NCBI GenBank assembly: GCA_015063725.1
Contig: SVTP01000026.1
Span: forward strand, 1-36,929
Direction of reading: 5' to 3'
DNA from: Oscillospiraceae bacterium
GTDB lineage: Bacteria > Bacillota > Clostridia > Oscillospirales > CAG-272
Length of the DNA: 36,929 nucleotides
The position numbers were made by a program, and so were the translations under genes. The notes under the pieces were generated by a model. It was not told the DNA's origin, searched no databases, and saw only the letters and a list, made by a program, of their open reading frames with translations. Positions 16,002 through 24,553 of the stretch are shown here, in pieces. Every line of letters starts with the position of its first letter. The first letter of the stretch is position 1.

Positions 16002-17081
16002 TTACTCTTTTTCAGCGTGTTTTTCGAGGTCAGCAATAATCTTCTTGAATCTTTCTTCGTTTCTCACAAAATCAAATTTGCCATGTTCTAACGCTTTTAA
16101 TCTAAGATTACAAGCATTACCCTTATAATTTTTAGAAGTATTTGCTTTTGTATGCTTCATACGATTTACCATTGGTGCTGTGTAATTCATATCTTTTAAA
16201 TTTGCCTCGATAATCGCATACCGACAGCTTTCTTCAAGTGCTTTCAAAGTGTTCTCTACATCCTTCAGCTCTGCATACTCCCAAGCAATGTGTAGATAGT
16301 AATAAGAAATATCAAAAGCATAAAAACCAACATTATCGTCTGAGTACAGTCGTTTAAGAATATCGATTGCGAAGGTAAAGGCTTCAATAGCTTCCTGATG
16401 CGAAAAATGTGTTTTTGAAATCATACTTGATGCCGTCATCGCAGCCGTATGAATTAAAGACATCATATAGCTTTGGCAAGCCTTAACACCTTCTTCTCCG
16501 TCGAGAATCGTGGTTCTTAGATCCTCCCTTGTTATATGGAACGTTCCACTCATATCGGCATAATATAGCGCTTTTTCTTTATCGATATTATCGTAGGTAT
16601 AGCACAAACATTGTACCGCATTTTCTCTTTGACGAGTGTCCGTAGATCTCTGCAAAAGCTCCTCACCAAGAGCGATGATGCGCTCTGCTTCGGCTTTAGG
16701 GCAAGGATATACCGCATCTCTATTGATTGCATACATAAGACCTTCGATAACGCGGCAATCCTTCGGAAATTCAGAATATGCCTTTTCCCAAATTTCAAGG
16801 TTCTTTTGATTTTCACCATTCTGACAGCAAATTTTACTTTGCCGCTGATATTCACAAATCGCTTCTTCCACTTTTACTTGATCTACACAAAGCAATTCAT
16901 CAACAGTCACATCAAAATAAAACGCGATTTTAGGTAGCAAAGTAATATCCGGAAAACCTTCTCCACGTTCCCACTTTCCGACGGATTGCGGTGTGATTCC
17001 AAGATGATTGGCAAGTGCTTCTTGGGTAATATTTTTTTGTTGTCTTAATGAACGTAATTTTTCTTTTAAGTTGATTTCCAT
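16002..17081 (-). CDS. XRE-family regulator with TPR-like C-terminal region
   Basis: A 359-residue DNA-binding regulator. Residues 1-65 are a Cro/C1-type helix-turn-helix (LRSLRQQKNITQEALANHLGITPQSVGKWERGEG is its core region). The rest is helical with repeated aromatic and Ala/Leu patterns resembling TPRs, as in peptide- or ligand-sensing XRE-TPR regulators of Clostridia. Monocistronic, with promoter TTGAAA-17-TATACT and a perfect palindrome between promoter and ribosome site that suggests autorepression. Its target is unknown. It lies divergent from the phage packaging genes, about 460 bp away, so control of that island is possible but unproven. Its codon use is more AT-rich than its neighbours, so it may be acquired. 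Confidence 0.82.
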   Translation of the reverse strand: MEINLKEKLRSLRQQKNITQEALANHLGITPQSVGKWERGEGFPDITLLPKIAFYFDVTVDELLCVDQVKVEEAICEYQRQSKICCQNGENQKNLEIWEKAYSEFPKDCRVIEGLMYAINRDAVYPCPKAEAERIIALGEELLQRSTDTRQRENAVQCLCYTYDNIDKEKALYYADMSGTFHITREDLRTTILDGEEGVKACQSYMMSLIHTAAMTASSMISKTHFSHQEAIEAFTFAIDILKRLYSDDNVGFYAFDISYYYLHIAWEYAELKDVENTLKALEESCRYAIIEANLKDMNYTAPMVNRMKHTKANTSKNYKGNACNLRLKALEHGKFDFVRNEERFKKIIADLEKHAEKE

Positions 17082-17425: not shown

Positions 17426-17426
17426 T

Positions 17427-17475
17427 GTGCCACATAATGTGGCACAACATGGCACACATTGTCATCTTTTGGCAC
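17427..17475. promoter_or_regulatory. Phased TGGCAC repeat cluster upstream of the small terminase gene
   Basis: GTGCCACAT-A-ATGTGGCAC (17427-17445) is a perfect palindrome. Direct TGGCAC copies follow at 17440, 17450 and 17470, that is, 10 and 20 bp apart or one and two helical turns. It ends about 65 bp before the small terminase start. Candidate roles are an operator or a phage packaging recognition (pac) site. The rest of 17082-17541 holds the XRE promoter, a terminator and the GTTATGA array; no gene is seen. Confidence 0.45.
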
Positions 17476-17541
17476 GAAAAGACGCGGTAAAATGATGGCG
17501 TCACAAGGAAAAACCGAGTGAATGGAGGTGATGTACTTTGT

Positions 17542-17934
17542 ATGGCAAAGAGATTGCCAAAAACGCTTGACACTTCCGCCCGTCAAAAACGCCTCTTGGC
17601 TCTCTTGGAGGAGTACGTGGGGGCTTGCCGTCCGCCGCCCGAGGCGGGCACCAAAAAGGCAGGCGGAAAATTTGCAAATCTTGCAGGCTTTTGCCGCTTT
17701 CTCGGTTGCGGCATCTCCTACCTGCAAAAGCTATGCTCCGATGCTCCCCGTCTTTATGATCTCATTTGCACAACGCTTGAGGACGAGCTTCTGATCTCTT
17801 CTCCTTCCCCGTCGCTGCTTTCCTACTATCTCAAAAAGCGGTTGGGGTATGACGAGAAGGAAGAAGCCTCGAGCGCCTCTTGCGGCGAGATGCGGCTGGT
17901 GTTTGAGCATGACATTTTGGAGGACGGCGTGTGA
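17542..17934 (+). CDS. Putative terminase small subunit
   Basis: A 130-residue, mostly helical protein (MAKRLPKTLDTS...) with a central GKFANLAGFCRFLGCG part that could be a helix-turn-helix, and a charged tail. The call rests mainly on position: it directly precedes and overlaps the large terminase gene by 4 bases. Small terminases recognise the viral DNA packaging site and regulate the motor. GGAGGTG lies 11-17 bases before this ATG; an in-frame GTG 24 bases earlier overlaps that site and is less likely. Sequence similarity in this family is weak, so function is inferred. Confidence 0.6.
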   Translation: MAKRLPKTLDTSARQKRLLALLEEYVGACRPPPEAGTKKAGGKFANLAGFCRFLGCGISYLQKLCSDAPRLYDLICTTLEDELLISSPSPSLLSYYLKKRLGYDEKEEASSASCGEMRLVFEHDILEDGV

Positions 17935-19253
17935 GAGAACCGGAGGCGCTCTCCTTACATATCCGCGGCACGCCCAACGAGCGGCAAAAGCTGTTTTTTG
18001 CCTCTCGCGCCCGTTACACGGCTTACGGCGGTGCGCGCGGTGGCGGCAAATCCTGGGCGTTGCGGCGCAAGCTGATTGGTCTTTGTCTCCGCTATCCCGG
18101 CATTCGGTGCCTATTGGTGCGGCGTTCCTATGCGGAGCTGAAAGCCAATCACGTCCGCCCACTGTTGGACGAATACGGAACGCTCCTCTCCTACAGCGAG
18201 GGGGACAAGATTCTGACACTCCCCAACGGCAGCAGCATCGCGCTGGGCTATTGCGCGTCGCAGAGAGACGTTTTGCGCTACCAGGGACAAGAGTACGACA
18301 TTATTGCCATTGATGAGGCTACGCAGCTGAGCGAATATCAGTTTTCTATTTTTAAGGCCTGTCTTCGTGGCACTCGTGACGTACCGCGCAGAATGTATTT
18401 GACCTGCAACCCCGGCGGCGTTGGTCACGCTTGGGTAAAGCGGCTGTTTGTAGAGCGGAATTTTCGAGGGGATGAAAATCCTGACGATTACCTGTTCATC
18501 TCGGCGCAGGTGTATGACAACCCCGTATTGATGCGGGCTGACCCCGACTATGTTCGGCAGTTGGAAAGTCTGCCTCAAAAGCTGCGCGACGCGTGGTTGT
18601 ATGGCAGGTGGGACGTTTTTGAGGGACAGTTTTTTTCGGAGTTCGACCACGACGTGCACGTATGCTCCCCCGAAAAGATCCCATCGTCCCTTTACTATTT
18701 TGTTGCGCTGGACTACGGATTTGATATGCTTGCCGCCCTTTTGATGGGATGTGACAGTGATGGGAATTTGTTTGCCGTAAAGGAATTTTGCAAGCCCAAC
18801 CTGACCTTGAGTGAGGCGGCTCGCGAGGTCTCGCTTTTGTGTCAGGGGTACAACGTTCGTTATGCGGTGGCTTCCCCCGACCTTTGGAACCGCCGTCAGG
18901 ATAGCGGAAAAAGCGGATTTGAGGTGATGCAGTCGGTGCCCGGCATGCCGCCGATGTGCGCCGCCGACAACCGCCGCGTTCCCGGATGGCGCGTTTTGCG
19001 CGAATACTTAAGCCCTGCAGACGGCGCATCTGCGCTTCGGATATCGTCGGTTTGCACCGAGCTGATCCGCTCAATGCCTGCGCTTCTTTGCGACGCGATG
19101 CGTCCCGAGGATGCCTCGGACGAGCCCCACGCCGTAACGCACGCGCCGGAAGCCTTGCGCTATGCCGTAATGAGCCGCGCAAATCTCCCCTCCCCAATGC
19201 CTGCCGCCAACAATACCTTTCGTTTTGCAAAAAAAGAGCGCTCGCTCTTTTAG
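17931..19253 (+). CDS. Terminase large subunit (packaging ATPase-nuclease)
   Basis: A 440-residue TerL that pumps DNA into a procapsid and cuts it. Walker A GGARGGGKS is at 33-41, Walker B IIAIDEA at 124-130 and the coupling motif TCNPGG at 158-163. The RNase H-like nuclease domain has Asp261 in VALDYGFD, Asp in ASPDLW (about 317) and a His/Glu-rich third site near HAPEALRYAV. All motifs look intact, so the motor could be functional. The start is GTG at 17931, overlapping the small subunit stop, with TTGGAGG before it. Closest in type to TerLs of short-tailed or P22-like phages of Firmicutes. Confidence 0.92.
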   Translation: MREPEALSLHIRGTPNERQKLFFASRARYTAYGGARGGGKSWALRRKLIGLCLRYPGIRCLLVRRSYAELKANHVRPLLDEYGTLLSYSEGDKILTLPNGSSIALGYCASQRDVLRYQGQEYDIIAIDEATQLSEYQFSIFKACLRGTRDVPRRMYLTCNPGGVGHAWVKRLFVERNFRGDENPDDYLFISAQVYDNPVLMRADPDYVRQLESLPQKLRDAWLYGRWDVFEGQFFSEFDHDVHVCSPEKIPSSLYYFVALDYGFDMLAALLMGCDSDGNLFAVKEFCKPNLTLSEAAREVSLLCQGYNVRYAVASPDLWNRRQDSGKSGFEVMQSVPGMPPMCAADNRRVPGWRVLREYLSPADGASALRISSVCTELIRSMPALLCDAMRPEDASDEPHAVTHAPEALRYAVMSRANLPSPMPAANNTFRFAKKERSLF

Positions 19254-19275
19254 AGCGAGCGAGAGAGACGGTTTT
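19239..19275 (+). terminator. Hairpin over the TerL stop codon, possible attenuator
   Basis: A 10-bp stem (19239-19248 and 19252-19261, core GCTCGCTCT / AGAGCGAGC) spans the TerL stop codon, and GTTTTTTCTT follows after 10 bases. The gap makes it a poor terminator. It could lower read-through into the later virion genes or protect mRNA ends. Confidence 0.4.
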
Positions 19276-19314
19276 TTCTTGTGACAGTTCAAAATGAAAG
19301 GAGTTTTTCGATTT

Positions 19315-21030
19315 ATGGCAAGACTCAGATCAAAGCACTCCGCTTTGAAGATACTCTCTTGCAAATTTGGCGGCATGGGAAAGCACACGCCGCTCTCCCC
19401 CGAGGGTGCCGAGGATATGTGCAACTTTCGAATCCTGCCCGGCGGCGTTCTCAAAACACGTATGGGATATCGGCTTCACAAGTACTTTCCCGGCATGCAA
19501 AAGGTCCGCGGCGTTTGGCAGGGAACGCTGAAGGGTGTCTCGCTTTCGCTCTTTGTGGTCGATAGCAGCATTTACCGTTTGATGCAGAATGCGACATCAG
19601 AAAGCCCGGCGGGGGAACTTTCTACAAGCGAAGGACTTGTGCATTTTTGCGTCTATTTGGATGACTTGTATCTGCTGGACGGCAAGAGTATTTATCAGTA
19701 CTCCGTCTCGCAAAACAAGTTTCTTGAAATGGAAGCATACGTTCCGCTGTTCGGCTATCAGTGGAGTCCTACATCCTACGGTGACGTCAACGAGGAGATC
19801 AATATGCTCACGCCCCGTTTGCGTGTCCACTATTATAATTCCACCGCGTCGACCGTTTTCCGTCTTCCCTACTATGCCGATACGGTAGATATCGTGCGGG
19901 CGGACGGACAGGTAATTACCGATTACACCTTTACGCCCAAAACCGACCGAATCACCGTCAACACCGCGTCTCCCCCCACTATTCTTGAGGTTGGCTTTAC
20001 GGTGGATTTGAACGAGGAGATCCGCCAAAAAATTTTGGCAGCTCAGCTCTCCCTCATCTATTCTCACAATGGGGAGAACAAGCTTTTGCTTTGGGGCAAC
20101 GATGCACGCGTCTTTTGCTCACGAAACGTGACCGACTATATGCTCTCCTCCAGCCACGTACTCTATCCCAAGGCTTCCCCACTCTATTTTTGCGCGGAGG
20201 ACGTCCTCTTTTTGGGAGACAGTGCGCATCCCGTAACAGCAATGTGCCCTTTGTATGACACGGTTTTGGCGTTTACCGACGACCGCATCTGGAATCTCAC
20301 CTTTGAAAAAGGAACGGTTCAGGCGACTCTTGCGGCAAGCAATATCGGTTGCGCATCTCCCTTTGGCGCGATTCCCTACAAGAACAGCGTGATTGCCGTG
20401 ATAGGAAATGATGTTTATCGCATCAGCGCATCGGTCGCTCGCCCCGAGCAGATCTCCTTCGACCGTCTTTCGATTGGTCTGGAGGACAGGATCACATCTG
20501 ATTTTTCGAAGCGCGTGCATCTGTTTTGGAACGTGGCGGACGGTGAGATTTGGATGCGTGACCCTGAAAACGAAGGCGGCGACGTGCTGGTTTGGAACAC
20601 CGAAAGCGATGAATGGTATCGATTTGACAACATTCCCGCAAGCTTCTTTTTCAAAACCTCCGACGGGTTCGGGTTTGCGCAAAACAACGGCTCTCTCCTG
20701 TTTGACAGATCGCTTGGCACCGACTTTGATATGCCCATAACGGCTTTTTACAAAAGTGCCTACATGGACTTTGGAACGCCCGAGGTTCCGCGCCGCTCGA
20801 CACGTGCATATTTGTACTTTTTGGCAAGCGAGGGAGATGGAACGGTCCTTTTTGAAACCGAGCGAAACGGCAAGCTGTTTAACCTTGCCCAGCCTCTTTC
20901 CAACGCGGACACCTACCTGCAAACGATGCGCTTTGGTTCCCATCGCTACCGCTTTTTGCGCTTTACCATCTCTGCCAACGCATCTACCCCCGCCGAGTTC
21001 TACCGACTCGACATTCATTCTTTACCCTGA
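19315..21030 (+). CDS. Phage virion protein, beta-rich, possibly tail-nozzle or stabilisation protein
   Basis: A 571-residue protein made of repeated short beta-strand segments with aromatic and Asp/Gly turns (for example LFVVDSSIYRL, VYLDDLYLLDGKSIYQY, NKLLLWGNDARVFCS, ENEGGDVLVWNTESDEWYRF). This pattern suggests a beta-propeller such as those closing the portal in podoviruses (P22 gp10 or T7 gp12 type). That is a resemblance of pattern, not a proven match. The gene sits between terL and portal, an unusual place. The ATG at 19315 is 11 bases after AAAGGAG; an in-frame ATG at 19294 lacks a ribosome site. If the call is right, the particle has a short nozzle rather than a long tail. Confidence 0.55.
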   Translation: MARLRSKHSALKILSCKFGGMGKHTPLSPEGAEDMCNFRILPGGVLKTRMGYRLHKYFPGMQKVRGVWQGTLKGVSLSLFVVDSSIYRLMQNATSESPAGELSTSEGLVHFCVYLDDLYLLDGKSIYQYSVSQNKFLEMEAYVPLFGYQWSPTSYGDVNEEINMLTPRLRVHYYNSTASTVFRLPYYADTVDIVRADGQVITDYTFTPKTDRITVNTASPPTILEVGFTVDLNEEIRQKILAAQLSLIYSHNGENKLLLWGNDARVFCSRNVTDYMLSSSHVLYPKASPLYFCAEDVLFLGDSAHPVTAMCPLYDTVLAFTDDRIWNLTFEKGTVQATLAASNIGCASPFGAIPYKNSVIAVIGNDVYRISASVARPEQISFDRLSIGLEDRITSDFSKRVHLFWNVADGEIWMRDPENEGGDVLVWNTESDEWYRFDNIPASFFFKTSDGFGFAQNNGSLLFDRSLGTDFDMPITAFYKSAYMDFGTPEVPRRSTRAYLYFLASEGDGTVLFETERNGKLFNLAQPLSNADTYLQTMRFGSHRYRFLRFTISANASTPAEFYRLDIHSLP

Positions 21031-21041
21031 AGTTTTTTAGA

Positions 21042-21058
21042 AAGGAGGAATCGTTATT
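21042..21058 (+). promoter_or_regulatory. Ribosome site that defines an ATT start for portal
   Basis: AAGGAGG (21042-21048) is followed after seven bases by ATT (21056-21058), then TCT CAA GCA CAC. A stop (TAG 21038) closes the frame just upstream, and there is no ATG, GTG or TTG in frame until GTG at 21347. Starting there would drop about 97 residues with clear portal character. Confidence 0.7.
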
Positions 21059-22606
21059 TCTCAAGCACACGAACTGGCGTGGCGTGCCTACGAGGCAGGC
21101 AAAGCCTACAAACAACGCATCGGTCTTTATGAAACGGTAAGGCGCAACGAGCGTTTTTATCGCGGAGACCATTGGTATGGCGTAAACGCCGACCTCCCAC
21201 GCCCCGTTTTTAACTTTATCCGACGGATTACCGACCACCAGGTCGCATCCGTCATCGGTGGAGATATTTCTATCTCTTATTCCGACGAAGCACTCCCCTT
21301 TATCGCTTCTCCCGAGCAAAAACTCGCCGTCTCTCACGGTATCGGTGTGCTCAACCGCAATGCTGCCTGGCGCTGGAAACACGGGCAGATGGAGTCACTC
21401 TCCTATCAAGCGCTCCTGGATGCCGCTATTTCGGGCGATGGTGTATTCTACTGCTGGTGGGATTCCGACCGCCGCAACGGTCACGCCTTTGACGGTGACA
21501 TTCGCACGGATGTGATCGACTCCACCAATTTGTTTGTTGCAGACGTCAACTCATCTGATATTCAAAGTCAGAAATACGTAATGCTGGCAGGTCGCGCAAC
21601 AGTGGAAAGCTTGCGCCGCGAGGCACTGAGCTCGGGTGTGAGCGAGAAGGACGTTGCCCGCATTGTGAGCGACGATGAAAATTTGGGGACCTATGCGGCA
21701 GACCTTGGCAAAAACGAGCTTGCCGGCGAGGAAAAGGCGACTTTCTTGATTCGCTTCTTCCGTGAGAACGGTGAAGTCGTTTTTGAAAAAACGACCAAGA
21801 ACTGTCTCATCCGCCGCGCAAAAACAGGTCTGCGCCTCTACCCCATTGCCTATTTTCATTGGCACAATGCAAAGAACTGTTTTCACGGTACGGCATCAGT
21901 GAGCGATATGGTCGCAAACCAGAAATGCATCAACACCGCCTATGCCATGGCGCTCAAGCACATGCAAAATACTGCCTTTTCAAAAGTCATTTACGACAAG
22001 ACGCGTATTCCCGAATGGTCCAACGAGGTTGGTGAAGCCATCGGTGCCGTTGGCGGCGGTACTATGGCAGATGCCGTTTCGGTTGTGGGCGTTGGTCAAA
22101 TGCAGGATGGCTACCTCGATTTGATCACCGACGTAATTGAAAACACCAAGAGCATGATGGCAGCTACCGACTCGGCTTTGGGTGATGAGCGTGCTCACAA
22201 CACCAGCGCGATTTTGACCTTGCAGTCGGCGGCATCCGTCTCCCTGGAGCACGTTCGCGTTCACTTTTGCCGTTGCATTGGTGAGCTTGCCGCCATTTGG
22301 GCGGATATGCTTTGCACCTACTGCCCTACCGATCGCATGCTCTCTGTGATGGAAAAGAACGGTGACGTAAGTGCAGATGCCCTTGACTACGCGCTCCTGA
22401 AGAATGCGCTCATCAACGCAACCGTTCATGCGGGTAGCATTGACCGCTATTCGCCTGCCTCTACCGTTTCCACGCTGAACAAGCTACTCGACGACGGACA
22501 TTTGAGCGTTGCCGAATACGTGGAGCTGCTCCCCTCGGGCATGCTGACCAATCGCGAAGCGTTGCTCGAAAAACTCAAAGAGAAAGGAGTTGCAACTGAT
22601 GAATGA
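21056..22606 (+). CDS. Portal protein, apparent ATT start
   Basis: A 516-residue portal protein, the dodecameric ring through which DNA enters the capsid. The N-terminal part, found only when reading from the ATT, has typical portal features: helical AYEAGKAYKQRIGLYETVRRNERFYRGDHW, then LPRPVFNFIRRITDHQVASV. Downstream come YQALLDAAISGDGVFYCWWD, a wing region, the stem-like helical part and SMMAATDSALGDERAHNTSAI. Length fits portals of the 500-residue class. ATT starts are rare (known for infC and pcnB) and would keep the level low, fitting 12 copies per particle. A miscalled base (ATG read as ATT) is the main alternative. The stop overlaps the scaffold gene by 8 bases. Confidence 0.85.
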   Translation: MSQAHELAWRAYEAGKAYKQRIGLYETVRRNERFYRGDHWYGVNADLPRPVFNFIRRITDHQVASVIGGDISISYSDEALPFIASPEQKLAVSHGIGVLNRNAAWRWKHGQMESLSYQALLDAAISGDGVFYCWWDSDRRNGHAFDGDIRTDVIDSTNLFVADVNSSDIQSQKYVMLAGRATVESLRREALSSGVSEKDVARIVSDDENLGTYAADLGKNELAGEEKATFLIRFFRENGEVVFEKTTKNCLIRRAKTGLRLYPIAYFHWHNAKNCFHGTASVSDMVANQKCINTAYAMALKHMQNTAFSKVIYDKTRIPEWSNEVGEAIGAVGGGTMADAVSVVGVGQMQDGYLDLITDVIENTKSMMAATDSALGDERAHNTSAILTLQSAASVSLEHVRVHFCRCIGELAAIWADMLCTYCPTDRMLSVMEKNGDVSADALDYALLKNALINATVHAGSIDRYSPASTVSTLNKLLDDGHLSVAEYVELLPSGMLTNREALLEKLKEKGVATDE

Positions 22607-23216
22607 AGAATGCACTGTTCTCGAAGATCAAAATGAAGATGCGAGTGTATCGCGCGATTTTGTGGCGCAGGCGCCTGCGCCGCCTGCAGAATCCCCCGAA
22701 GAAGAAGGAGAGGAAGCCCCTCTCCGAGGGGCAGATGAAGCTATTACTGGCGTTTTTGCAGATCCCGATGCAGATCCTGATCCTAATTGCCAAAATTCTG
22801 ATCCCACGGATCAAAAAAGCGAATTGGACGAGCTGCGAGGTGAATTGATGCAGCTGCGTCAAGCGTTGGATGAAAGCCACGCGCGACTTGCACAAATGGA
22901 GCACATCGAACGTCAATACACCGAATTTTGCACACTCTACCCCAACACGCCAATCAGCACCCTTTCCGAAGAGGTGTGGCAAGGAGTGGCAAATGGCAAC
23001 TCTCTTGCCGCGGCATTTGCTCTTGCCGAGCATCGCCGCGCGCTCTCCCAAAAGAAGGCATCTGACAGCAATGCCTTCAACCGTTCCCGTTCTGCAGGTG
23101 CTGTGAAGAGCGCCGAGAACCTGGAATTTTCCCCTGCGGAGGTACGTGCCATGACCTCCGAGGAGGTTCGCGCAAATCTTTCAAAAATCATGCGCTCGAT
23201 GCAAAAATGGCACTAA
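22599..23216 (+). CDS. Capsid scaffold protein
   Basis: A 205-residue scaffold-like protein. The first 70 residues are very acidic and Pro-rich, with low complexity; residues about 73-105 form a likely coiled coil (SELDELRGELMQLRQALDES); the C-terminal 35 residues are a basic helical tail (ending SKIMRSMQKWH) that in known scaffolds binds the coat protein. Its position between portal and major capsid genes is the classic one. AAAGGAG lies before the ATG at 22599, which overlaps the portal end. No protease domain is seen. Confidence 0.75.
   Translation: MNEECTVLEDQNEDASVSRDFVAQAPAPPAESPEEEGEEAPLRGADEAITGVFADPDADPDPNCQNSDPTDQKSELDELRGELMQLRQALDESHARLAQMEHIERQYTEFCTLYPNTPISTLSEEVWQGVANGNSLAAAFALAEHRRALSQKKASDSNAFNRSRSAGAVKSAENLEFSPAEVRAMTSEEVRANLSKIMRSMQKWH
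22664..22681. repeat. 18-bp perfect palindrome inside the scaffold gene
   Basis: GGCGCAGGCGCCTGCGCC reads the same on both strands and encodes part of a Gln-Ala-Pro stretch. It would form a strong hairpin in mRNA about 65 bases after the scaffold start. It may be chance in a GC-rich low-complexity stretch. Confidence 0.5.
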
Positions 23217-23253
23217 CAACAAATTGATTGAATAAAGAAAGGAAAAAAACAGT

Positions 23254-24090
23254 ATGGCTATTACCAATTTTATTCCCACCGTGTGGAGCGAAAATCTCTA
23301 TCAGGAGCTTGACAAAAAGTATATCGGCGTTGCAAACTGCAACCGCGATTATGAAGGCGAAATTCGCGAAAAAGGCAACACCGTCCGCATTTGCGGCATT
23401 GGCGAGGTTGTGGTCTCCGAGTACACCAAGAATGCAAATATGAACTCCCCCGCAACGCTCTCCGACACCGCTCGCGACCTCACCATCGATCAGGCAAAGT
23501 ACTTCAACTTCCAAATCGATGACATCGACCGCGCACAATCCTCTCCCAAATTGATGGAGCTGGCAATGAAGAATGCTGCCAGCGCGCTTGCAAATGATGC
23601 AGACCGCTACATTTACGGTCTGTACGGTCAGGCAGGCACCAGCATCAAGTGTGACGGCGTAAACGCCGAAAACATCGTTGACCTCATCATCGATGCCAGA
23701 ACCAAGCTCTTTACCAACAACGTATCCGATCCTGAGGACATCGTGATCGAGGTTACCCCCGAGGTCGCAGGTCTGATTATGAAGGCAAAGGTCAACCTTT
23801 CCACCGACAATACCGAGCTGATGGAGACCGGTTGCATTGGCGCGATTGGCGGCTGCAAGATCTTTGTTTCCAACAACGTCAGAAAGATGGAAGGCGACAC
23901 CGGCTACGAGCACAAGTGCCTGGCACGTACCAAGCGCGCAATTGCTTTTGCAGAACAGCTCTCTGAGATCGATGCTTATCGTCCCGAGCTCCGCTTTGCC
24001 GATGCCGTTAAAGGTCTGCACCTCTATGGTGCAAAGGTCGTTTACCCCAACGAGATGGTACTGCTCGACCTGAACGTGCTCGACGCGTAA
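23254..24090 (+). CDS. Major capsid protein
   Basis: A 278-residue HK97-fold-type coat protein. The start MAITNFIPTVWSENLYQEL, the DRDYEGEI-like N-arm and a strand-rich middle (GNTVRICGIGEVVVSEYT, then YFNFQIDDIDRAQ) are typical of coat proteins of P22-like or Firmicutes phages. The C-terminal part IDAYRPELRFADAVKGLHLYGAKVV matches the axial-domain style of this group. AAAGGAAA precedes the ATG. No cleavage protease is nearby, so a scaffold-based, non-proteolytic assembly is likely. Intact, with no stop or frameshift. Confidence 0.85.
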   Translation: MAITNFIPTVWSENLYQELDKKYIGVANCNRDYEGEIREKGNTVRICGIGEVVVSEYTKNANMNSPATLSDTARDLTIDQAKYFNFQIDDIDRAQSSPKLMELAMKNAASALANDADRYIYGLYGQAGTSIKCDGVNAENIVDLIIDARTKLFTNNVSDPEDIVIEVTPEVAGLIMKAKVNLSTDNTELMETGCIGAIGGCKIFVSNNVRKMEGDTGYEHKCLARTKRAIAFAEQLSEIDAYRPELRFADAVKGLHLYGAKVVYPNEMVLLDLNVLDA

Positions 24091-24104
24091 TTTTGAGGTA
24101 ACAA

Positions 24105-24503
24105 ATGCTCTACCGCGATTTGATACAGAGCGCCATAGCGATTGTTTGCGAGAACGCGGTCGTTTCGTTTGGTAACGAGGATTACTACGCACGAGCCCCT
24201 TATTTGCTTGCCGCCTTTGTTACCCAATATGCCAAGCTTGACGGCGACTACCGCAAAGCCAACGGCATTGAAAACAAGGTCATTTCAACCGATGCCGCTG
24301 CAATTGAGGTGGATGAGGAGTTTCCGCTTTGCGACGTGTTTGCCCCAGCGGCAATCTATCACCTCGCCGCCGGACTTGTGATTGATGAGAACGAGGAGAT
24401 GAGCGATAAATTCTTTGACCGCTACATCAACGCCATTCTTGAAATTCGCAAAAATCTTCCCTCTTTGGCAGAGCCGATCGTTGACCGCTATGGCTTGACC
24501 TGA
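24105..24503 (+). CDS. Putative head-tail connector (adaptor) protein
   Basis: A 132-residue, mostly helical protein directly after the major capsid gene, 14 bases on. Size, helical content and place match head-completion adaptors that sit on the portal (HK97 gp6 or P22 gp4 role). The C-terminal half AAIYHLAAGLVIDENEEMSDKFFDRYINAILEIRKNL is characteristic in style of that group. It is the last gene of the island, followed by a strong terminator. The assignment rests on context and is moderate. Confidence 0.55.
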   Translation: MLYRDLIQSAIAIVCENAVVSFGNEDYYARAPYLLAAFVTQYAKLDGDYRKANGIENKVISTDAAAIEVDEEFPLCDVFAPAAIYHLAAGLVIDENEEMSDKFFDRYINAILEIRKNLPSLAEPIVDRYGLT

Positions 24504-24516
24504 TACACATAAAAAG

Positions 24517-24553
24517 GTACCCACGCGAAGTTCGCGTGGGTACTGATTTTTTT
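24517..24553. terminator. Bidirectional terminator between the island and recX
   Basis: The stem GTACCCACGCG / CGCGTGGGTAC, extendable by AA/TT toward the loop, is flanked by AAAAAG on the left and GATTTTTTTG on the right. It stops plus-strand transcription from the capsid operon and minus-strand transcription of recA-recX. Confidence 0.9.

Follow-up and report, generated by a model that had tools for sequence, protein, structure and literature searches.

The DNA analysed here, called the window below, is a stretch of 36,929 nucleotides from an Oscillospiraceae bacterium (contig SVTP01000026.1 of assembly GCA_015063725.1). It is the whole of contig C24 of a 1.85-Mb genome, which is 80% complete, lies in 38 contigs and has a single match to the large terminase (TerL). 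At positions 17542–24503 the window carries an island of about 7 kb, in which seven co-directional open reading frames (ORFs) follow one another with short gaps or overlaps. The first-pass annotation, made from the sequence alone, had described seven intact genes ending in a strong terminator, with a composition like that of the host. All of the ORFs were confirmed, the terminator hairpin was found, and the island resembles the neighbouring DNA in composition. No tRNA was found in the window. The island and its control elements are as follows.

17440–17475, + strand: promoter array of four hexamers with a 10-bp period (TGGCAC at 17440, TGGCAC at 17450, TGTCAT at 17460 and TGGCAC at 17470)
17488–17493, + strand: −10 box TAAAAT, 12 nt past the last hexamer
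17542–17934, + strand: putative small terminase (TerS), helical with a helix-turn-helix-like part, assigned from its position and an AlphaFold2 (AF2) model with a predicted local distance difference test score (pLDDT) of 75.5
17931–19253, + strand: large terminase (TerL), assigned from family matches and conserved residues
19294–21030, + strand: predicted podovirus tail nozzle of the P22 gp10 / T7 gp12 type, assigned from an AF2 model and fold matches in the PDB
21056–22606, + strand: portal of the P22 type, assigned from family matches, with a likely ATT start codon
22599–23216, + strand: scaffold-like protein, assigned from its position and make-up, without a phage family match
23254–24090, + strand: major coat protein (phrog_267, 9e-50; PF25209, 8.1e-7)
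24105–24503, + strand: putative head-tail adaptor or connector (conn), assigned from its position, without a phage family match
24516–24544, + strand: terminator hairpin of 13 bp, followed by a T-run (z = −7.35)

TerL matched phrog_979 (6e-46) and a Pfam family (1.2e-9), and the portal matched phrog_156 (4e-20) and the Pfam P22-type portal family (2e-10). TerL keeps the motifs GGARGGGKS and IIAIDEA, and Asp 261, 317 and 394 are invariant in 16 aligned TerLs; we take these to be the Walker and nuclease residues, whose motifs the first-pass annotation had already called intact. TerS, the scaffold and the adaptor matched no phage family in PHROGs or Pfam, and their putative identities rest on position, predicted shape and conservation. 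The top-ranked PDB fold match of the TerS model was P22 TerS, with an E-value (1.1) below significance. No integrase, replication, lysis, fibre or spike gene was found within the island, which bears out the first reading of its content.

The protein encoded at 19294–21030 had been called a beta-rich virion protein, and the whole a head-and-motor unit. Its family match is weaker (phrog_3287, 2.3e-7). The AF2 model, built on a 64-sequence alignment, was confident (pLDDT 91.6), and its PDB fold matches ranked 1 to 27 were all phage virion chains (best E-value 9.9e-21), with P22 gp10, T7 gp12, VP1, Pa223 and Pan3 among the best. The model has the nozzle beta-propeller fold, and the protein, as modelled, folds like a podovirus tail nozzle. 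The unit would therefore join a short-tail core to the head and the packaging motor; head and motor stand, and the earlier description was incomplete. Identity of the nozzle to 63 homologues is 19–55%; this fast evolution fits what is expected of an exposed part.

The island is widespread in the genus. Counting the window's own genome, TerL was detected in 97 of 147; among the 34 genus relatives 30 have it, at 70–88% identity where it is full-length (in genome G015 it is in two pieces). The coat gene was found in 31 of the 35 genus genomes, the window's own included; G024 has a coat at 88% identity and no TerL in its assembly, the G014 coat (39%) is that of a different phage, and in G002 a second coat (35%) stems from another phage. 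L128 (G002:C16) and L129 (G014:C45) are different phage regions whose portal and coat are only 25–37% like those of the island. The island was seen in 32 of the 35 genomes, usually in one copy, and was not seen in G014, G019 and G021. Of 29 same-genus loci, 22 keep all seven genes in the same order on a single contig (two of them with an end gene cut), and the remaining seven loci run off contig ends. A named scan confirmed at least 555 relatives, of which the best 80 were kept. All of these are metagenome-assembled genomes (MAGs) titled Clostridia or members thereof, many from ruminant guts, and 41 of the best 80 MAG loci have all seven genes in the window order. The shared order in the genus and in these MAGs is far beyond chance.

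Trees of RpoB and of TerL, portal and coat combined were built for 27 genomes by a quick method. The two trees have 14 of 24 splits in common, while 2000 shuffles gave a mean of 0.18 and a maximum of 3. Among the strong splits of the RpoB and island trees (13 and 11 with Shimodaira–Hasegawa-like approximate likelihood ratio support, SH-aLRT, of at least 95) no conflict was found, and the Mantel r was 0.72 against a shuffle maximum of 0.30. These results indicate that the island is vertically inherited and co-diversifies with its host. A satellite would be expected to move between strains; the island trees follow the host, in a set of species-level genomes only. Between L060 (G008) and L040 (G027) the nonsynonymous divergence (dN) is 0.36 for the coat and 0.15 for TerL, a possible coat exchange, and G022 has rpoB on both C52 and C107, of which C52 scores like that of G008 and is perhaps contamination.

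The ratio of nonsynonymous to synonymous substitution (dN/dS) was calculated by the Nei–Gojobori method (NG86) in 13 pairs, each gene in the pairs that have it. The rough values were 0.06–0.29 for terS, 0.075–0.18 for terL, 0.17–0.34 for the nozzle, 0.07–0.15 for the portal, 0.05–0.25 for the coat and 0.085–0.24 for the adaptor (one adaptor pair saturated), that is, 0.05–0.34 over these six genes, and 0.34–0.55 for the scaffold. The island genes are under purifying selection. Internal stops within tblastn matches were found in 2 of 322 gene instances from the genus, family and order, close to the end of the G023 portal and at codon 85 of the G017 scaffold, in a count that misses frameshifts terminating a match. 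The first-pass annotation had argued that this is not a decaying prophage and that selection has kept a working, possibly gene transfer agent (GTA)-like unit, and had named dN/dS and disrupting mutations as the check; the low ratios, the rare stops, the congruent trees and the recurrence of the genes across the genus all agree with it.

The island is fully endogenized: it lies on chromosomal contigs with host genes adjoining. The flank scan covered 150 of 166 ORFs, with 25 of 75 PHROG and 25 of 127 Pfam families shown. The flank families among those shown are host genes, for example recA, phoH, ybeY, proS and mutS; none of the 25 commonest was an integrase or tail family (50 further PHROG families fall outside these), and two flank members matched an endolysin family, possibly as a stray hydrolase. 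The integrase, replication and lysis genes of a functional temperate prophage are not in the element, and the block lay inside a full prophage in none of the 29 same-genus loci inspected, an arrangement that, by the first-pass annotation, would have counted against a selected unit. The same note had proposed looking for the seven genes beside recX. They recur, but recX/recA is downstream in only 3 of the 29 other loci, and the partnership with recX is therefore not a fixed one. From species to species the flanking genes vary, and within subgroups they are shared, which fits a fixed element in rearranging chromosomes.

In G019 (L338, G019:C57) the promoter array and the start of terS, where matches end at residues 52–61, are directly followed by the end of conn, where matches begin at residues 30–67 and reach 126–130. 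With queries from six genomes, no significant TerL, nozzle, portal or coat match was found in 13 kb. This locus is a deletion scar rather than a clean excision.

Alignment of the regions upstream of terS brought out direct hexamer repeats. A strict array was defined as four hexamers starting with TG, in steps of 9–11 bp and with conservation of at least 20/24, followed by TANNAT 10–13 nt on. It was present in 27 of 60 upstream regions and in none of 1180 random control segments from the same loci, and the gap from the last hexamer to the −10 box was 12 nt in all 27. The hexamer varies by lineage (TGGCAC, TGAGAC, TGGCAG, TGGTAC). Within a locus its four copies tend to vary in concert, the pattern that a co-evolving DNA-binding protein would be expected to leave. 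No array-binding protein was identified. The XRE regulator encoded upstream (16002–17081) was considered as a dedicated regulator and rejected, since a full-length match adjoins the island only in G009. A LexA box before terS is absent in the window and in the loci with the window order. At 17426–17446 a perfect palindrome, TGTGCCACATAATGTGGCACA, overlaps the first array unit of the window; it was not found in four aligned close relatives.

The 35 genus genomes were searched with three TGGCAC units, allowing up to two mismatches. This gave matches in 21 genomes, where the reversed control gave 2 matches in all, and they were merged to 34 places: 20 particle promoters, the G019 scar, five MuF-RNase genes, five DUF6291 genes and three chance-like places (G001:C18, G012:C34 and G011:C13). 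The arrays before MuF-RNase genes, in G011, G022, G023 and G027 (twice), have 10-10-10 spacing; the contig of G011 ends a few codons into its gene, and a third copy in G027 was missed by this search. Those before DUF6291 genes are in G002 (twice), G017 and G023 (twice). The particle promoters of six genomes have 10-9-10 spacing, and the MuF-RNase genes of G013 and G016 have a 10-9-10 array with no mismatch (reversed control, 0). In G013 this spacing is found at both the particle and the MuF-RNase loci, and the particle promoter of G016 is cut by a contig end. The matching geometry at unlinked loci is the strongest sign in these genomes that one trans-acting regulator may serve them.

In Pfam, two MuF-RNase proteins matched Ribonuclease (1.4e-10 and 4.5e-15) and Phage_Mu_F (4.8e-5, under the cut-off, and 5.9e-8), one neighbour matched Barstar (2.2e-20), and three proteins matched DUF6291, one of them under the curated cut-off. 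The MuF-RNase loci under the array are L329, L330, L336, L337, L344 and L347, with a barstar-like gene next in L329, L330, L336 and L337. The DUF6291 loci under the array are L331–L335, and the L334 and L335 proteins have the C-terminal motif DFFE..NW.GR in common. Three observations weigh against a single shared regulator: a match to the MuF-RNase profile exists in only 5 of 34 genus relatives, neither MuF-RNase nor DUF6291 was found in the window's genome, and the four placeable MuF-RNase genes of other genera have no clear array.

Sister lineages among the best 80 MAG loci suggest where the island came from. In eight longer loci (L195, L198, L199, L202, L203, L204, L206 and L207) the order is TerL, portal, coat and nozzle, followed by amidase/LysM, fibre-like and coiled-coil genes; the scaffold and adaptor were matched in most of them, and ahead of the amidase L198 has two small ORFs that contain a hydrophobic stretch and look holin-like on inspection. 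All eight have a LexA-like GAACAAATGTTC box 453–494 nt upstream of terL. A GAACNNNNGTTC box lies within 800 nt upstream in 15 of the best 80 loci, where 0.017 per locus is expected from 25 occurrences in 1.16 Mb elsewhere, and none of the 15 has the full window order. It is likely, judging from these lineages, that the ancestor was a prophage or GTA under SOS control, that its lysis genes were lost or moved and that its control changed. Within the genus, the sister-lineage coiled-coil profile was found only in G002, on the contig of a different phage, and a 97-aa phrog_4105 protein in none of the 35 genomes. The sister-lineage fibre-like and amidase/LysM proteins were likewise found in none of the 35, both weak negatives, since these searches had no positive control.

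Viral records gave only distant relatives. The 713 phage records matching TerL are all below 60% identity, the best (49%) being an uncultured human faecal record. The nearest IMG/VR contigs (59–68%) are short, with only island genes identified, and many of the longer ones, at 45–53%, have other portals and coats. L217–L221 are IMG/VR contigs of 5–10 kb with only island genes identified, possibly chromosomal pieces misclassified as viral.

The annotation of the portal was corrected. Its frame is closed by a TAG stop at 21038, and the first ATG, GTG or TTG is the GTG at 21347, codon 98. The ATT at 21056, 7 nt downstream of GGAGG, is the likely start. The portal matches of most relatives begin at residue 1–9, so the codons ahead of GTG 21347 are translated. 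ATT is found at the equivalent position in G009, G011 and G032, with a GTG 27 codons later in G011 and G032. G023 keeps the ATT and in addition has an ATG in frame that could serve; it lies nine codons ahead of the position that aligns with the ATT plus three. Most other species have ATG at or adjoining the ATT position. In the RpoB tree, which covers genomes with RpoB and so not G009, G000, G011, G023 and G032 cluster with G026, whose portal has ATG. We read this as an AUU start retained in one clade, where it might lower portal synthesis.

We interpret the island as the operon for the structural proteins of a podovirus-type particle that the host has domesticated and inherits vertically, a GTA-like viriform, with a probability of roughly 0.7. 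The bacterium probably uses the seven genes to make, for itself, small particles filled with DNA. The gene content, intact frames, nozzle fold, co-inheritance, purifying selection and shared promoter are all computed here; for the activator, assembly, DNA cargo, release and delivery, we infer the following course. A dedicated activator would bind the four-hexamer array upstream of the −10 box and switch on, in some cells, a single transcript of all seven genes, from TerS to the adaptor. A small capsid would be assembled, loaded with DNA by the TerS/TerL motor and closed by the adaptor and the nozzle. The cargo would most likely be host DNA, because no replication or integrase genes accompany the island. 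In some lineages, more speculatively, the MuF-RNase might be taken into the capsid close to the portal, in the manner of SPP1 gp7 according to the available part of PMC5576092, and barstar might protect the producer and its kin. An extended form of this idea is tentative: one activator and its co-evolving, 10-bp-phased array would wire the GTA-like particle to the unlinked MuF-RNase/barstar pair, in lineages that have this pair the armed particle would deliver RNase with or instead of DNA so that only barstar-bearing kin survive, and in the window's lineage this circuit would have replaced the ancestral LexA (SOS) control. If true, gene exchange would be coupled to kin selection.

The MuF-RNase genes could also be read the other way, the particle being a domesticated toxin-delivery device, PBSX-like or bacteriocin-like, that carries MuF-RNase as its cargo, with barstar shielding kin and no gene transfer. 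The particle-type array before MuF-RNase in G011, G022, G023, G027, G013 and G016 and the Ribonuclease, Phage_Mu_F and Barstar matches speak for it. We consider it unlikely, because most particle carriers, the window's genome included, are without the toxin gene, which makes MuF-RNase an accessory at most. A satellite or mini-phage that forms capsids and moves with the tails or integrases of helpers, an option raised by the first-pass annotation, would explain a self-contained head module, flanks that vary by species and the short IMG/VR contigs L217–L221; the single copy in most genomes, the absence of strong tree conflicts, the nozzle of its own and the lack of an integrase in the island or among the 25 commonest flank families shown make it improbable. 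cf-PICI satellites, moreover, have their own integrase. That the island is a functionless remnant of a recently captured or decaying prophage is suggested by its lack of integrase, replication, lysis and fibre genes and by a portal without a canonical start. We regard this as highly improbable given the congruent trees, low dN/dS, intact frames and a promoter conserved across the genus, and the ATT start itself recurs in related species.

One variant is compatible with the domesticated particle: a complete GTA whose fibre, release and maturation genes lie elsewhere and are too divergent to find, like the second operon (FpGTA II) of the Faecalibacterium agent FpGTA. In the available part of PMC12946183 that operon has baseplate, fibre and lysis genes, and in the sister lineages described above fibre-like and amidase/LysM genes belong to the operon, joined in L198 by holin-like ORFs. 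The sister-lineage fibre and amidase were, however, found in none of the 35 genus genomes, the coiled-coil gene occurs only on a different phage's contig in G002, and the arrays beyond the particle precede only MuF-RNase or DUF6291 genes, apart from the three chance-like places; the variant is thus possible but doubtful. The earlier suggestion of tail parts encoded elsewhere was half right, in that the island includes the nozzle and the genus yielded neither fibre nor lysis genes of the sister kind.

Several points weigh against the domesticated, GTA-like particle. Particle, packaging and transfer are predictions from the genes, and the window's genome is incomplete and fragmented. No lysis or fibre genes of the sister kind that would account for release and recipient binding were found in the genus. 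TerS retains a helix-turn-helix-like region and could still select DNA. The dN/dS values are rough because many dS exceed 1. In 33 of the 60 upstream regions the strict array rule fails, and roughly ten show no array; many of the 33 carry a looser one by eye. The likeness to FpGTA is one of plan, drawn from the published description, as available in part, and not from sequence.

GTAs are defined, in the available part of PMC9662315, by structural proteins derived from Caudoviricetes, endogenization, vertical inheritance, packaging of mostly random host DNA, incomplete packaging of their own genes because the head is too small, and delivery to other cells. Caudoviricete-derived structural proteins are found here by family matches and the nozzle fold. 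Of the six features, three are present here and the other three are experimental, and the island is therefore called GTA-like and not a GTA. According to the accessible text of PMC12946183, very few GTAs are known outside the Alphaproteobacteria, and the first podovirus-like one, from a gut Clostridium relative, dates from January 2026. With the island there would be a second candidate, this one spanning a genus, whose tree is congruent with that of the host, whose gene set is compact and whose promoter can be recognised. Through this promoter the regulon can be searched for and the regulator caught, and particle production is tied by it to a toxin–immunity pair in some species. Carriers occur in MAGs from many ruminant guts, where gene flow could be strongly affected, provided that the particles work.

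In the literature searched, with preprints and most subscription papers outside its scope, PMC12946183 was the sole close paper. Its accessible part describes FpGTA as a podovirus-like agent of Faecalibacterium with particles of about 40 nm that hold about 9 kb of host DNA; FpGTA I spans 10.5 kb and has ten ORFs, and some strains also carry a second operon, which holds baseplate, fibre and lysis genes. It also reports GTA-like packaging in Christensenellaceae and other Clostridia, with the operons not named in that part. On this description, FpGTA and the island are alike in belonging to gut Clostridia, in being podovirus-like and in having one operon, free of replication genes, that encodes TerS, TerL, portal, scaffold and coat. 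The island differs in its seven genes and in that a further locus for tail or lysis was looked for and not found; it also has the promoter array described here.

RcGTA and CcGTA are siphovirus-like, with longer tails and lysis genes. Their gene transfer is proven, whereas the island is known from its genes and likened to them by description. What they share, on the available part of PMC9662315, is vertical inheritance, phage-derived structural genes on the chromosome and no self-replication. P22-like podoviruses resemble the island in portal family and nozzle fold (P22 gp10, T7 gp12), but the island is without their fibre or spike, lysis, replication and integration genes. The MuF polymorphic toxins of temperate phages, as described in the accessible part of PMC5576092, are likewise MuF domains fused to toxin domains in gut Firmicutes; the MuF-RNase found here, in contrast, adjoins barstar, is unlinked to the capsid genes, is absent from the window's genome and appears to be tied to the particle by its promoter only.

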